DNA of 64,000 nucleotides from Opitutaceae bacterium (lineage in GTDB: Bacteria; Verrucomicrobiota; Verrucomicrobiia; Opitutales; Opitutaceae). Positions 973-8,177 of this stretch are shown here, piece by piece. Each line of letters starts with the position of its first letter. Within the stretch, counting starts at the first letter, position 1. Both the position numbers and the translations under genes were made by a program. The DNA lies in assembly GCA_028281165.1 (NCBI GenBank), contig JANQKI010000185.1, positions 1-64,000 on the forward strand. Direction: 5' to 3'. The notes below the pieces were generated by a model. That model was not told the DNA's origin, searched no databases, and saw only the letters and a list, made by a program, of their open reading frames with translations.

Positions 973-1911
973 ATGTCTTCGGAAATTGAAAACGTTATCA
1001 TCGTAGGAACCGGCTGCGCGGGTTTAACGGCCGCCATCTACACTTCGCGAGCCAATCTTTCACCCCTGGTTATCGAAGGCAATTTGCCGGGAGGACAGCT
1101 GACCCAAACCAGCGAAGTAGAAAATTTCCCTGGCTTCCCGGAAGGCATCGACGGCTTCATGCTAATGGACAATCTGCGTAAGCAGGCTACCAGATTTGGA
1201 ACGCGATTTGAGCAGGCCTACATCGAATCGGTGGATTTCGCGCAATCTCCCTACACCCTGAAGACCTCCTCGAAAGAGTATAAGGCAAAATCTGTCATTA
1301 TCTCGACCGGAGCCTCGCCGCGCTTGCTTGGCGTTCCGGGCGAAAAGGAGATGTTCGGAGGAAAAGGCGTCACGACCTGCGCAACCTGCGACGGAGCGTT
1401 TTACCGCGACATGGATGTCGTAGTCGTTGGAGGCGGAGACACTGCCTGCGAAGAAGCTCTCTTTCTCACTCGCTTCTGCAGCAAAATAACGCTCATCCAT
1501 CGCCGCGACGAATTGCGGGCCTCGAAGATCATGGCCGAACGCGCCATCAACCACGAAAAGATCGAGATGGCGTGGGATACTGTGGTGGAGGAAGTTATAG
1601 CTGATGAAACCGGAAACGCATCCGGGGTTCGCCTTAAGAACGTAAAATCGGGCGAAAGCAGTGAAATAGCCTGCAAGGGAGTCTTTATCGCAATCGGCCA
1701 TATTCCCAATACCGCTGCATTCAAGGACTTCGTCGATACCGACGAGGAAGGATATTTTAAGCCGCTCAACGGCAGCCAGATACAAACTAAGGTTCCCGGC
1801 GTTTACGTGGCTGGCGATTGCGCGGATCATGTCTACCGCCAAGCCATCACGGCCGCTGGCATGGGTTGCCAAGCCGCCATCGAAGCCGAGCGCTGGCTAG
1901 CCGAGCAGTAA
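973..1911 (+). CDS. trxB: Thioredoxin-disulfide reductase
   Basis: NADPH-dependent flavoenzyme that reduces thioredoxin in the cytoplasm. The FAD-binding glycine motif GTGCAGL is at residues 12-18. The redox-active CATC motif is Cys136/Cys139. The NADPH-binding GGGDTA loop follows shortly after, and the C-terminal FAD motif GDCAD precedes the conserved [11 protein letters not shown] segment. Length (312 aa) is typical of low-molecular-weight TrxB. The ATG at 973 fits the usual N-terminus. It is followed by the satD operator region and is probably transcribed alone. No thioredoxin gene is adjacent. Confidence 0.96.
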
Positions 1912-1920
1912 ACCGGATTT

Positions 1921-1985
1921 GGTTTATTTTCTAAAAGTAAACCTTTTTTAGTTTACATTCTAAAAGTAAACCTTAATAGGTTTAC
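1921..1985 (+). promoter_or_regulatory. 29-bp-period operator-like array upstream of satD
   Basis: Three GGTTTAC-type half-sites lie exactly 29 bp apart, beginning at 1921 (GGTTTAT), 1950 (AGTTTAC) and 1979 (GGTTTAC). The first two continue as TTCTAAAAGTAAACC and so form imperfect inverted repeats with GTAAACC at 1937-1943 and 1966-1972. The third half-site ends four bases before the satD ATG at 1989. This looks like a binding array for a dimeric regulator, possibly SatD itself, which has a C-terminal helix-turn-helix-like segment. Protein binding is inferred. Confidence 0.6.
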
Positions 1986-1988
1986 TAA

Positions 1989-2636
1989 ATGGCTTCACTA
2001 CACGCAGTCCTGACGGGAGATATTATCAATTCAAGCGAGCTAAGTTCGGATCGGCTGGAAATGCTTCCGGATATAATCAGTGACGAAATTCATGCCGTTG
2101 GAACCTCAGCAAAAGATCTGTTCATAGGATTCTATCAGATCTTTAGAGGAGACAGCTGGCAATTCATTACCAAATCGCCCGATTCAGTATTAAATGTGGG
2201 GCTATCGTTGCGTGGTCGACTTCGTGGCATCCATGGAATGGATACGAGATTTAGTATTGGAATTGGAGAGGTGAATGAAAAAAGGAGAAGTGGATCCCTA
2301 GCAAACCATGGCGAGTGCTACAAGCTTTCAGGAAAAGGCTTAGACGAGATGAGTGCCAATCAAACAGTGGATATCAGGATGGGCTCTAAAATCGAAGGAA
2401 TTCAGAACTTCGCTACGACGACTGCACGTCTCATCGATGCGATCACGACAAATTGGACCGAAAAGCAAGCCTATGCATGCGCTTTGGACCTATGCGGACA
2501 TTCTCATGAAATTTCCGGCAACGTGATGGGCATTACAAAACAAGCCTTTGGTAAACATCTCGCAGCAGCCAAATGGAATCTTGTTAAAGGAGGCCTTGAC
2601 GCCTTCAGAGAGGAGATCAGGTTACACTTGCCCTAG
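1989..2636 (+). CDS. satD: SatD family protein with C-terminal helix-turn-helix-like segment
   Basis: The 215-aa protein resembles the SatD family, named after the secretion-and-acid-tolerance operon of streptococci and of unknown biochemical role. Visible features are the N-terminal VLTGDIINSS motif (residues 7-16), a central RGDSWQ motif near 53-58, a region resembling a compact alpha/beta domain, and a C-terminal segment (about 157-198) with ITKQAFGKHLAAAKW that reads like a sigma-region-4 or MarR-like helix-turn-helix. The next gene encodes a DUF3307-like membrane protein, a combination I recall from other bacteria. The ATG at 1989 sits just after a periodic operator array, so autoregulation is plausible. 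The family call is from motif recall, and whether the N-terminal domain is enzymatic is unknown. Confidence 0.72.
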   Translation: MASLHAVLTGDIINSSELSSDRLEMLPDIISDEIHAVGTSAKDLFIGFYQIFRGDSWQFITKSPDSVLNVGLSLRGRLRGIHGMDTRFSIGIGEVNEKRRSGSLANHGECYKLSGKGLDEMSANQTVDIRMGSKIEGIQNFATTTARLIDAITTNWTEKQAYACALDLCGHSHEISGNVMGITKQAFGKHLAAAKWNLVKGGLDAFREEIRLHLP

Positions 2637-2638
2637 TC

Positions 2639-3367
2639 ATGCCCCACCTGGATTTCAAAATATTCATACCCCTTCTCACGGCTCATCTGGTAGTTGACTT
2701 CTACTTGCAGAGCGGCGAGCAGGTTCATAACAAGAGGAAGCCTTCTGTATTCGTATTTCATATACTGATGGTCGGCATAGCGACTTATGTACTGCTAGGC
2801 GACTAGACGGCTTGGTTGGCTCCCATCATGGTCATGGCAAGCCATGGGCTGATCGATTGGCTTAAGCTGGCAGTCAGTCCCAAATGGATTGGAGATTTGC
2901 GAGCTTTCGTAATTGATCAACTTCTACACTTAGGAATACTCTATGGAATAGCCGTAGTAATAAATGAATACATGGATTATAAAGGATGGTGGGGACATCC
3001 AAGCCAAGATCCCTATCTTTTTATTCTGCTAATATTGTCCGGAGTGATCTTGGTGACGAAAGCCGGTGGCATTCTTATTCAAAAAACTCTCAACACAATT
3101 TTAGAAGAAAAACGCTCTCAAGAGGGTTTGCCGAAAGGAGGGCGTTACATTGGCTATTTAGAGCGGCTCCTCCTTCTCATGTTTATAATGCTGGGTCAAG
3201 TTACGGCGATCGGATTCCTAGTAGCCGCTAAATCCATATTTCGTTTTGGAGAAATGAAAGAGAACGAGCAGGGGAAAGCGGAATACATCCTAGTAGGGAC
3301 ACTACTAAGCTTCACTGCAGGAATCAGCTTCGCCATAGCCATCAAAGGAATGTGGGATCAGCTTTAG
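2639..3367 (+). pseudogene. DUF3307-like membrane protein interrupted by in-frame TAG
   Basis: Reading from ATG 2639, two bases after satD ends, gives 55 codons beginning MPHLDFKIFIPLLTAHLVVD, then TAG at 2804-2806, then 186 further codons in the same frame to the stop at 3365-3367. The HLVVDFYLQ segment before the stop and SHGLIDW after it are the His/Asp-containing membrane motifs expected at the start and middle of DUF3307 proteins. Four or more hydrophobic segments follow. The amber codon sits where a tryptophan is plausible (GD-stop-TAWL), so one TGG-to-TAG change would explain it. The 2816 TTG start of the downstream part is probably not a natural start. Alternatives are programmed readthrough or a sequencing error. 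Confidence 0.75.
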
Positions 3368-3551: not shown

Positions 3552-3983
3552 ATGTTACACCAAGAAGCAACCGAAGAACTGAATCGCAAACTGGCGAGGG
3601 CCGGCTTGCGATCGACGCGTCAGAGGGAAGTGGTTTATGGCGCTATTCTCGCCAAACGCGACCACCCCACCGCAGACGATATTTTTGCCAGAGTAAAGCA
3701 AGAGATGCCTACCATCTCTCTCGCCACGGTCTATAACTGCCTCGATACCCTGGTCCATTGCGGCCTAGTAAAACAGGTCAACCTAGAGCGCGAATCGACG
3801 CGCTATTGCCCGAACCTAACGGAACACGCTCATTTTCACGACAACGAATCGGGGAAGATTTACGACGTGCAGCTCGACTCGGAAGCCATTTACAAGCTGC
3901 AGTCGCTACTTCCCGGAGAATTCGACGTAAGTTCCATCGACATAACGTTTCGAGGCAAAGCCGCCTCAACTGTAGAAGCTTAG
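3552..3983 (+). CDS. Fur/PerR family transcriptional regulator lacking CxxC zinc motifs
   Basis: A 143-aa Fur-superfamily DNA-binding regulator. The winged-helix domain spans residues 1-80, with [11 protein letters not shown] near 19-29 and the recognition region [14 protein letters not shown] at 54-67. The regulatory metal region HAHFH is at 92-96. The usual structural-zinc motif CxxCG after it is replaced by DNESG (97-101), and no second CxxC pair is present, so the Cys4 zinc site of canonical Fur/PerR is missing. The stop codon is immediately followed by sufC, which suggests it regulates Fe-S assembly in the same transcript. Whether it senses iron, peroxide or an Fe-S signal cannot be decided. 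Three palindromic boxes lie upstream. Confidence 0.88.
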
Positions 3984-4005
3984 CATGATAGACTTTTTCA
4001 ACAAA

Positions 4006-4767
4006 ATGACAGCCACACTAGAAATTCAGAATCTCAATGTAAGCATCGGAGAGAAGCCGATCCTAAAAGATTTCAGCCTGACGATTCCCAAGGGTGAAGT
4101 GCACGCCATCATGGGTCCCAACGGAACAGGCAAGAGCACCCTGGCCAAGGCTTTGGCTGGCCATCCCGATTACGAGATCACAAGCGGTGACGCCTTGATC
4201 GACGGCGAATCCATTTTGGAAATGGAGCCAGACGAGCGCTCGCGCGAAGGCCTATTCATGGCGTTTCAATATCCAATCGAGATACCTGGCGTAACCATTG
4301 CCAATTTCATCAGAGCCGCCTTGAACGGCCGCTTGCCGGAAGGCGAAGAGCTCAACGCCCCAGCGTATTACAGATCTCTATACGAGAAGATGGACATGCT
4401 GAAAATCGATCGGAAATTCACGTCGCGATTCGTAAACGATGGCTTTTCGGGAGGAGAGAAGAAGCGATGCGAGATCCTGCAGATGGCCATGCTCGATCCG
4501 AAATACGCTATCCTCGATGAAACCGATTCCGGCCTCGATATTGACGCCTTAAAGGTAGTGGCCGATGGAGTGAATTCTTTACGTGGAGAGAATCTTGGGG
4601 TTCTCGTTATCACTCACTACCAGAGGCTGCTCGAATACATCGTGCCCGACCACGTGCACGTCTTGTACGACGGCCGTATTGTTAAGAGCGGCGACAAGGA
4701 TCTGGCTTTGGAATTGGAAGAGAAGGGCTACGATTGGGTAAAAGAACTAGCCGAAACCGCAGCATAA
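4006..4767 (+). CDS. sufC: Fe-S cluster assembly ATPase SufC
   Basis: Cytoplasmic ABC-type ATPase of the SufBCD scaffold, which powers Fe-S cluster assembly. The protein has Walker [10 protein letters not shown], the Q-loop region [12 protein letters not shown], the ABC signature FSGGEKKR and Walker [12 protein letters not shown], in the SufC style with no membrane domain. I chose ATG 4006 ([10 protein letters not shown]) because it matches the usual SufC N-terminus. An in-frame ATG at 3985, one base after the upstream regulator stops, would add seven residues and cannot be excluded. It is followed 18 bp later by sufB. Confidence 0.95.
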
Positions 4768-4785
4768 ATAACCTGTATTTGAATC

Positions 4786-6195
4786 ATGACGACAACGACA
4801 ACTCAAATTGAGATTGATCGCGACAAGGGCGATTTCCAGTACCCGGAGCAGCACAAGTACGATGCCGGCACTGGCCTGAGCGAGAAAACGATCGACTACA
4901 TCTGTGACGTAAAAGGAGAAGACGACTGGATACGCTCCTTTCGCAAACGCGCCCTCAAAGTTTTCGAGAGCAAGCCCATGCCTACTCATTGGGCAACCAA
5001 GGATCTGGAAAACATCGATTTCGATAAGATTCGCTACTATCTAGCAGACGGCCAGCGCGCTTCACGCAGTTGGGAAGATGTGCCCGACGACGTCAAGGAG
5101 ACGTTCGAGCGACTGGGTATACCCGAAAACGAGAGAAAGTTTCTAGCTGGCGTCGAGGCTCAGTTCGATAGCGAGGCCGCGTATTCGAATATCAAAGACG
5201 CCGTAGCCAAAGATGGCGTCATCTTTGTCGGCAGCACCGAGGGACTTCTTAAACATCCTGATATTTTCCGCAAATGGTTCGGCAAAGTCATACCGACAGG
5301 AGACAACAAGTTTTCCGCTTTGAATAGCGCGGTCTTCTCAGGCGGCTCTTTCATCTATGTTCCACCGGGCGTGAAGGTAAGCCATCCGCTACAAGCCTAC
5401 TTCCGCATCAACGCGGAAAACTTTGGGCAGTTCGAGCGCACTCTTATCATCGCAGACGAAGGATCGGAGGTCACCTATATGGAAGGCTGTACCGCTCCGA
5501 AGTTCGACACAGCAACCTTGCACAGCGCCGTGGTCGAGCTAGTCGCTATGCCTGGAGCGAAAATCGAATACATTACGGTGCAAAACTGGGCTAGCAATGT
5601 GTACAACCTCGTTACGAAGCGGGCCCTGGCTCATGAAAACTCGGTCGTAAAGTGGATCGACTGCAACATCGGCTCGCGTCTGACCATGAAGTACCCAGGC
5701 GTCGTTTTGAAAGGCCGCAAAGCCCGTGGTGAAGTTCTCAGCATTGCCTTGGCCAATGATGATCAGCACCAGGACACAGGAGCCAAGATGATCCACGCTG
5801 CGGACGAAACTACTAGCAACGTGATATCCAAATCAATCAGCGTTGGAGAGGGCCGATCCACCTACCGTGGTCAAGTGCACATGCCAAAACACTTGAAGGG
5901 ATGTAAGAACAACACCGAATGTGACGCATTGCTCATCAACTCGAATTCACGCACCGACACCTACCCTGCTATCACCGTCAGAGGCGACGACAACTCTGTG
6001 CAGCACGAAGCCTCGGTCAGCAAGGTTTCCGCCGAGCAAATCTTTTACATGCAGCAACGAGGACTGAGCGAGGGCGAAGCCATGAGCTTGAGCGTCAATG
6101 GATTCGTGAACGATCTGACCCGACAGTTTCCCATGGAATACAGCGTGGAATTGAAGCGGCTGATCGAGCTGGAAATGGAAGGTTCTGTAGGCTGA
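4786..6195 (+). CDS. sufB: Fe-S cluster assembly scaffold SufB
   Basis: Core scaffold subunit of SufBC2D, where the nascent Fe-S cluster is built. The 469-residue length and the order of conserved blocks are typical: an N-terminal helical region, VFVGSTEG-like and [13 protein letters not shown] segments leading into the beta-helix, then YMEGCTAP, whose Cys235 corresponds to the conserved sulfur-accepting cysteine region. The C-terminal half carries the [12 protein letters not shown] block and [10 protein letters not shown]. It is transcribed between sufC (18 bp gap) and sufD (27 bp gap). No cysteine desulfurase (SufS) or SufE/SufU gene lies in this window. Confidence 0.97.
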
Positions 6196-6222
6196 GGCGC
6201 TAACCAAGAAAATTTTATTACC

Positions 6223-7572
6223 GTGAGTTCAATTGCAGAAGATGTCCCAATGAAGACGGAAAGCCAATCCGTCACAGCCTTTAAGGAGACCTTCAATCAC
6301 CATATTGAAGATCTCGATACAACGCCAGGCTGGTGGCGAAGCATGAAACGCGAGGCTTTTGATCGTTTTCTCACGACGCCTATGCCGAAACGCAAAGACG
6401 AGAGCTGGCGCTTCGCTTCGCTAAGCAACTTGTCGTTCGCGGAGTTCGCCTACGGCAAGCCGCCATCGATCACCAATGCTCAAGAGCTTGTAGAGAAATC
6501 TCGGATACTCGAGCACCAATCTGGCAGCTTCACTTTCGCTGACAATCAAACAATTGATGCGGAAAAAGCCTCCTTCGAGCTGCAGAAAAAAGGCGTTATT
6601 TGGACGAGCCTCCGAGAAGCCATCAGCAGGAATGGCGAACTGCTAAAAGATTACTTCATGAAGCAGGAAGCGAATCTTGGTTCAGAGAAATTCTCACTGC
6701 TGCACACGTCGTTCGTCGAAAATGGCGCCCTGCTCTACATTCCCAAAGGCGTAGAAGTCGAGTATCCGTTTGTCTCGTATAATTGGATCACTGGACAAAA
6801 TGCAGCCGTCTTCCCGCATACCCTGGTCATCGCAGAAGAATTCGCCAAGGTCAGTTTGGTCGAAGCCCACTTCTCGACCACAGAAGACGTTGGAGCTCTG
6901 TCCTGTGGGGTCACCCACTTGTTTGCCGGTGTTGGGGCGAAGATCGACTACACGTTGCTGCAAAATTACAATGAGGAAACCCTCGGTTTTCAGATCAATT
7001 CCAACATCGCGGGCAAAGACGCGACGGTTAAGACGGTTAGCGTAAACGTAGGCTGTCGCAACTACCGGAGCGAAACCCACGGCCAGATCAAGGGAGCAGG
7101 AGCTCACGTCGAAATGCTGTCTTTAGCTGTGGCAGATAAAGATCAGGAGATCGACCAAAGGACTTTGCAAACACACTCGGCTCCTCATGCCACCTCTGAT
7201 TTGCTTTTCAAGAATGCATTGAAGGACAATGCCAAAACCATCTTCTCCGGTTTGATAAAAGTCGATGATGGCGCTCAGCAGACCGACGCTTATCAAACCA
7301 ATCGAAACCTTCTTCTCAGCAAGACCGCTGAAGCCAACTCGCTACCTGGACTGGAAATCGAAGCCAATGACGTGAAGTGTAGTCATGGGGCGACTACCAG
7401 CCAAATCGAGGAAGAAGAAATTTTCTACATGCTCGCCCGTGGCATTCCCAAAGAGAAAGCTCAGGAGCTTGTAGTCTATGGTTTCTTCGAAGAAATTCTG
7501 GAACGTATCGAGGACGAAAAACTCAAGGAATTCGCTAGATCAGTCATCCAAACGAAATTCAGCAGCAAATAA
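6223..7572 (+). CDS. sufD: Fe-S cluster assembly protein SufD
   Basis: Partner of SufB in the SufBC2D complex, thought to help deliver iron and form the interface cluster site. The C-terminal beta-helix holds the conserved VKCSHGATTS block (Cys386, His388), followed by EEEIFYMLARGI, both hallmarks of SufD. The assigned start is GTG at 6223; an in-frame ATG at 6250 (MKTESQSV) is an alternative giving nine fewer residues. Length (449 aa) is typical. It lies 27 bp after sufB and 14 bp before the SufT-type gene, so all four are likely one operon. Confidence 0.96.
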   Translation: MSSIAEDVPMKTESQSVTAFKETFNHHIEDLDTTPGWWRSMKREAFDRFLTTPMPKRKDESWRFASLSNLSFAEFAYGKPPSITNAQELVEKSRILEHQSGSFTFADNQTIDAEKASFELQKKGVIWTSLREAISRNGELLKDYFMKQEANLGSEKFSLLHTSFVENGALLYIPKGVEVEYPFVSYNWITGQNAAVFPHTLVIAEEFAKVSLVEAHFSTTEDVGALSCGVTHLFAGVGAKIDYTLLQNYNEETLGFQINSNIAGKDATVKTVSVNVGCRNYRSETHGQIKGAGAHVEMLSLAVADKDQEIDQRTLQTHSAPHATSDLLFKNALKDNAKTIFSGLIKVDDGAQQTDAYQTNRNLLLSKTAEANSLPGLEIEANDVKCSHGATTSQIEEEEIFYMLARGIPKEKAQELVVYGFFEEILERIEDEKLKEFARSVIQTKFSSK

Positions 7573-7586
7573 ACCAGAGACACGCC

Positions 7587-8177
7587 ATGTCAGAAATACA
7601 ACAGCAAGACACTCAGGAAAGAAGCCTTACGCGTGAGGTCGAAGCGGTTCAGATTCCGAGCGGAGATCGGTTTGAGTTGCCTGCCCTTACCAAAGTGCAC
7701 ATCACGCAACAGCTCGGCGGGAGCTATACCGTAATGACGCCCTATGGTTTGGCTCGCATCGATGGGAAGGACGCGGACGCGCTGGGAGCTGATTTAGCTG
7801 AGGAACAGGAAAAGCGTATCCAGGAGTCTCAAGCCAACGTGTCTGGTCAGCCTTCTGGCGAGGAACCGGACGAGGAATCGCTTTGGCAGCAATTGAAGAA
7901 CGTCTACGATCCGGAGATCCCTGTTAACATTGTAGACCTAGGACTGGTGTATTCCTTGAATGTCGAAAAGCTGGAAAACGGCGGAAACAAGGTGAACATT
8001 CAAATGACGTTAACTGCCCCTGGTTGCGGAATGGGACCAGCCATAGCTGAGGACGCGAAAAGCAATGTAATGCTCATTCCCGGCGTAGACGAAGCAGAGG
8101 TAAACCTCGTGTGGGAACCTGCTTGGGAACAGACCATGATCAGCGAGGAAGGTCGCATGATCTTAGGTCTGGTCTAA
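7587..8177 (+). CDS. sufT: SufT-type Fe-S maturation protein (DUF59/MIP18 family, long form)
   Basis: The 196-aa protein has an N-terminal extension (1-90) typical of the long SufT form, then a DUF59/MIP18 domain from about residue 97. Key blocks are YDPEIPVNIVDLGLVYSL (107-124) and TAPGCGMG, with the conserved Cys147. DUF59 proteins act in late Fe-S cluster maturation or transfer; the exact client set here is unknown. It is the last gene of the suf cluster, 14 bp after sufD. Confidence 0.88.
   Translation: MSEIQQQDTQERSLTREVEAVQIPSGDRFELPALTKVHITQQLGGSYTVMTPYGLARIDGKDADALGADLAEEQEKRIQESQANVSGQPSGEEPDEESLWQQLKNVYDPEIPVNIVDLGLVYSLNVEKLENGGNKVNIQMTLTAPGCGMGPAIAEDAKSNVMLIPGVDEAEVNLVWEPAWEQTMISEEGRMILGLV

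Follow-up and report, generated by a model that had tools for sequence, protein, structure and literature searches.

SatD-like proteins as likely readers of a phased palindrome array beside a DUF3307 membrane protein gene

The SatD family (Pfam PF16264) takes its name from the Streptococcus mutans gene satD ("secretion and acid tolerance"). Both satD and DUF3307 genes occur widely, and neither has an assigned mechanism; in the open-access literature on SatD, DUF3307, and their Pfam numbers, we found no mechanistic paper and no report of DNA binding or operators for SatD. Two other described systems should be kept in mind when examining these genes. The mycobacterial cyclase-LuxR-HTH fusion proteins carry a cyclase-type domain, a helix-turn-helix (HTH), and an AAA-type ATPase domain on one chain, whereas the Pycsar anti-phage systems possess a cyclase-fold protein beside a membrane protein, and their effector has a cyclic-nucleotide-binding domain.

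Here, we describe a satD-like gene in the window, that is, the whole stretch of 64,000 nucleotides from an Opitutaceae contig that was analyzed. Its product resembles canonical SatD in full-length homology, conserved residues, type of partner gene, and an upstream array with 28/29-bp spacing, but differs in giving no match to the Pfam model at E 1 (model cut-off 29 bits). With class III nucleotide cyclases, GGDEF domains, and GTP cyclohydrolase III, residues 1-149 share the fold (Z 10-11) and two metal-binding Asp residues; the window protein is smaller, is fused to an HTH, and is about 10-15% identical to them, the likeness being one of predicted fold. Like the mycobacterial fusions, SatD joins a cyclase-type domain to an HTH in a single polypeptide, though the former also carry the ATPase domain and, to our knowledge, no phased palindrome array is known for them. 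As in Pycsar, a cyclase-fold protein adjoins a membrane protein; the SatD pair differs by its HTH and operators, and by a partner without a visible cyclic-nucleotide-binding domain. For SatD, the data presented below point to a likely function, the reading of phased operators.

The locus in the window

Inspection of the window sequence upstream of the satD-like gene revealed three palindromes of the form GTAAACC-N6-GGTTTAC with a period of exactly 29 bp; they are assigned to neither strand. Palindrome 1 (1908..1927, GTAAACC-GGATTT-GGTTTAT) overlaps the stop codon of trxB (TAA, 1909-1911), palindrome 2 (1937..1956, GTAAACC-TTTTTT-AGTTTAC) follows 29 bp later, and palindrome 3 (1966..1985, GTAAACC-TTAATA-GGTTTAC), a further 29 bp on, lies 3 nt before the ATG; the array thus ends at 1985 and the start codon begins at 1989. 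An earlier note on this DNA had placed half-sites at 1921, 1950, and 1979 with a 29-bp period, and this was borne out: GGTTTAT and AGTTTAC have one mismatch each, and GGTTTAC is exact. The same note had, however, read the dyad as GGTTTAC plus the next GTAAACC 16 bp downstream, which is the wrong register and misses the left arm of unit 1 at 1908-1914; the relatives support GTAAACC-N6-GGTTTAC. With the register corrected, the three-unit array is confirmed as real.

The best three-unit score is 40/42 in the window, whereas none of 800 dinucleotide shuffles scores above 31, and these three sites are the only ones in the whole 5.1-Mb genome within one mismatch of the pattern. Neither a sigma-70-like promoter nor a terminator-like site was found at the array. 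The search for a wider regulon was conducted by pattern matching: no other good single operator site was found in the window genome, and outside the arrays the window genome and five relatives returned only isolated places with three mismatches, a background level for the array pattern.

The satD-like gene (1989..2636, + strand) encodes 215 amino acids. Neither Pfam nor NCBIfam provided a name for the protein, and the best of its near relatives scored 24.7 bits (E 2e-5) against PF16264, below the cut-off. When the divergent group to which it belongs was aligned with the canonical SatD group, hhalign returned a probability of 97.7% (E 1.5e-12) over 202 columns, that is, full-length homology, and D11, D55, Q58, R87, G93, and G108 (window numbering) are common to the window protein and nearly all of 102 aligned relatives. 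By these sequence comparisons, the protein is a divergent SatD relative that falls outside PF16264 membership, which corrects the plain name SatD used in the earlier note.

The AlphaFold model of this protein, built on a 77-sequence alignment, has a mean pLDDT of 94. Structure prediction had been suggested as a check for a cyclase-like N-domain, and residues 1-149 (1989..2435, + strand) are predicted with high confidence to adopt a cyclase/GGDEF palm fold of the class III nucleotide-cyclase type (Z about 11 to adenylyl cyclases and GTP cyclohydrolase III). The matches include the bacterial adenylyl cyclase 5mbg (Z 11.4, rmsd 3.4 over 145 residues), GTP cyclohydrolase III 2qv6 (Z 11.0, rmsd 2.4 over 116 residues), and the uridylate cyclase 8jsz. 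Judged by sequence position and predicted fold, D11 and D55 appear to correspond to the metal ligands of cyclase-type enzymes. The C-terminal HTH that had been proposed is likewise predicted with high confidence, at residues 158-196 (2460..2576, + strand), with the putative specificity residues 185, 188, and 189 in its recognition helix; the family HTH gave weak matches to LuxR-, sigma-region-4-, and YlxM-type HTH models. PADLOC returned no useful match, and none of the phage records searched for SatD carries one.

The partner gene (2639..3367, + strand) begins two bases after the satD-like stop and comprises a DUF3307 N-terminal part and a shared C-terminal membrane module. There is an in-frame TAG at 2804-2806 (codon 56), a sense codon in relatives, and the frame is otherwise open to 3367; this may be a recent nonsense mutation or an assembly error. 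Against DUF3307 (PF11750, cut-off 23 bits), readthrough of the TAG gives the partner 58.1 bits, and the portion after the stop reaches 28.1 bits on its own. The next gene had been called a DUF3307-like membrane protein, and this assignment stands for the domain, although not for an intact frame. The partner is presumably an integral membrane protein; its AlphaFold model (pLDDT 88) is all-helical, and comparison of the fold with the PDB gave no usable match (Foldseek E above 1, best Z 6.7). The partners show no visible cyclic-nucleotide-binding domain, Pfam giving DUF3307 or nothing.

The C-terminal module (3124..3364, + strand; GRxIGxLER...AAKSxxRF...AEYxLIGTL) is found in nearly all readable partners, even those with a non-DUF3307 N-terminal part, and makes up nearly the entire protein in short ones. 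This conserved membrane module is missing from Pfam and is the likely output of the system. It takes up the last 80-100 aa of partner proteins such as those at L004:681-1412 (- strand) and L128:2151-2567 (+ strand), where it is written GRxIGxLER...AAKSxxRF...AEYVLIGTL.

Phased operators and the recognition helix among relatives

Relatives were collected by protein search alone. A contig search with the window protein alone as query gave no matches, whereas the canonical SatD alignment did retrieve contig loci. The resulting sample of 104 SatD loci spans many phyla (Verrucomicrobiota, Bacteroidota, Balneolota, Ignavibacteriota, Calditrichota, Gammaproteobacteria, Spirochaetota, Chloroflexota, Acidobacteriota, Myxococcota, and candidate phyla), and its 80 contig-derived loci are those closest to an Opitutus SatD, a non-random selection.

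In a free scan that allowed any period of 20-45 bp and any palindrome length of 14-22, the best period was 28 bp in 41 and 29 bp in 42 satD upstream regions (83/104); neither the shuffles nor two control regions favored any period. Strong palindrome pairs at 28/29 bp are present in 65/104 satD upstream regions, compared with 0/824 AT-rich flank control windows. The earlier note had proposed the conservation of motif and spacing upstream of satD homologs as a check on its reading, and the array passes it. A second scan, restricted to spacings of 27-30 bp, assigned 149/152 unit spacings to 29 bp (88) or 28 bp (61). Arrays typically have three units, with a range of two to five palindromes, and at most loci no more than about 50 bp separates the end of the operators from the start codon.

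Five SatD loci on plasmids, of which three come from haloarchaea and two from Alphaproteobacteria, were obtained after the scan had been fixed, and all conform: Halorientalis and Haloplanus have pairs at 29 bp, Natronosalvus has 29, Sphingomonas 28 and 28, and Agrobacterium 28. The operators thereby gain a family-wide 28/29-bp rule that is valid in bacteria and archaea. The Halorientalis and Haloplanus plasmids (L127 and L131) show four palindromes arranged as two pairs, each at 29 bp, with the inner units 47 bp apart, start to start.

The question of which protein reads these sites can be approached through co-variation. Operator similarity tracks similarity of the recognition helix when the N-domain is controlled for (partial Mantel r 0.34, p 0.0002), whereas N-domain similarity adds nothing once the HTH is given (r -0.004, p 0.51). 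A residue-base table was drawn up for the 49/66 distinct loci that fit the GGTT half-site register, 17/66 lying outside it. Here, of all combinations of an HTH residue with a variable base, residue 185 and base 5 of GGTTNA are the most tightly linked (z 13.4), with Arg accompanying C in 9/9, Lys accompanying G in 8/8, Gln accompanying T in 12/17, and Val accompanying A in 6/8. Links were also seen between residue 188 and base 6 (z 9.9) and between residue 189 and base 2 (z 5.5); the best N-domain position reached z 5.5 against operator bases. Independence was assessed with 29 disjoint sister pairs on the N-domain tree, and base 5 changed in 7/8 pairs in which residue 185 changed, compared with 2/21 in which it did not (p 0.00017). 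The window protein, with Q185 and T at base 5, agrees with the rule, and the recognition code offers a single residue that can be changed to probe specificity.

It is this co-variation of helix and operator that ties SatD itself to the array. An HTH that, by sequence and model, appears to read operators beside its own operon is what one expects of a one-component HTH regulator. The earlier suggestion of an autoregulated sensor-effector pair accordingly gains support from the conserved array, the recognition-helix co-variation, and the predicted folds, with a qualification as to where the array lies. When satD and the partner gene overlap or nearly touch, the array precedes satD. Some loci of the divergent group whose two genes are separated (L003, L005, L017, L019, L020, and L043) have it in the gap, before the partner, though it stays upstream of satD in some loci where the satD-partner gap is 33 to 66 bp. 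The shift toward the partner upon separation is a tendency, therefore, and not a strict rule. Simple autoregulation does not hold at the loci with the array downstream of satD; as the array either stays before satD or moves to the partner, the likely common target is the partner's transcription unit.

Proposed mechanism and alternatives

We consider it very probable, on sequence and model evidence, that the SatD-like protein is a DNA-binding (auto)regulator of phased operators at the unit of its partner, linked to a nucleotide and with the level of the partner as output. The C-terminal HTH, presumably dimeric, would bind palindromes of 17-20 bp with a half-site that is usually GGTT-N-A, and two to five of these, at exactly 28 or 29 bp, would sit at the presumed promoter of the partner-containing unit. 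Neighboring SatD dimers, about 2.7 turns apart, would probably touch, resulting in cooperative binding. For the N-terminal cyclase/palm-fold domain, the most likely role is to sense a nucleotide or turn one over, which would alter DNA binding. The output would be the level of the partner membrane protein, which may act at the membrane in a manner that needs restraint. Regulation would take the form of repression, which fits operators near start codons. Array geometry, conservation, the recognition-helix link, the predicted folds, and the conserved gene pair are the parts of this scheme that the sequences support. Most likely, then, SatD is an autoregulator that responds to a nucleotide and controls its membrane partner, and the palm/cyclase fold appears to serve this small transcription factor as its input domain.

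There are other ways in which the locus could be read. SatD could chiefly work as a nucleotide cyclase, making a product that acts on the membrane partner in the manner of a Pycsar-type defence, and the array would do no more than tune expression. The fold with its uridylate cyclase match, the conservation of both metal-type Asp residues, and an all-helical, presumably membrane-integral partner fit such an enzyme; the dedicated operator-reading HTH that is predicted in SatD, the lack of a visible cyclic-nucleotide-binding domain in partners, and the PADLOC search, which gave no useful match, do not, and we regard this reading as unlikely, if compatible with the regulator reading and not exclusive of it. 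It is less probable still that another regulator binds the palindromes and SatD merely adjoins them. Although operator remnants persist in a sister genome without satD (described below), which such a regulator could account for, the array is unique in the window genome and accompanies the gene pair from phylum to phylum, archaea included, and its operators co-vary with the recognition helix of SatD, rather than with the N-domain, in independent pairs as well.

Repeats of this kind could also act as RNA, whether as hairpins, an attenuator, or a terminator for trxB, given that every palindrome could fold as a hairpin and palindrome 1 overlaps the trxB stop. RNA elements, however, would not be expected to keep a fixed 28/29-bp spacing or to co-vary with a DNA-binding helix, and with no terminator-like site found, we hold this to be highly improbable. 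As for chance repeats, the array region is indeed AT-rich, but the shuffles (31 vs 40) and the flank controls (0/824) leave chance a negligible probability, and this candidate is already refuted by conservation in relatives.

Gene pairing and history of the locus

Intact homologues in relatives are paired in the same way, a satD-like gene with a partner. In two haloarchaeal plasmid annotations, a "SatD family protein" overlaps a "DUF3307 domain-containing protein" by four bases, and when lists of matches were compared for 372 genomes of the order, satD-like matches were present in 21, DUF3307 in 23, and both in 19. The satD-like gene of L008 has no partner and no array, and a Glu replaces Asp11; it is probably a relic. 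Two DUF3307 proteins with the C-terminal module (L137 and L138) have neither satD nor the array adjoining, and another regulator is possible there.

In a sister species (G001), trxB (90% identity) and the Fur-type gene (92%) are kept, 188 nt apart, and satD and DUF3307 are absent. Between trxB and the Fur-type gene (L135/L132), the first two palindromes remain, complete and with 29-bp spacing. This looks like a deletion that started inside the array, or like operators that have another use.

A bolder reading, which we put forward as doubtful but worth recording, is that SatD is a nucleotide-sensing repressor of a harmful membrane protein, the two genes forming a widespread guard or addiction module, bacterial and archaeal, whose operators would follow a one-residue/one-base code and a fixed 28/29-bp spacing. 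The leads are the patchy presence of satD, the operator scar in the sister species, and the stop codon in the window, which interrupts the partner while the regulator has none. In Streptococcus pyogenes, satD is essential in all strains tested, yet it is present in 178/249 genomes and absent from 29% (PMC11323703), as expected of the repressor or antidote of a harmful neighbor. Should the partner be harmful when unregulated, this could explain satD as an essential accessory gene in streptococci.

Directly downstream of the pair, the window (3552-8177) carries a Fur-type regulator and then an apparent suf cluster, with sufC-, sufB-, and sufD-like genes and a further gene.
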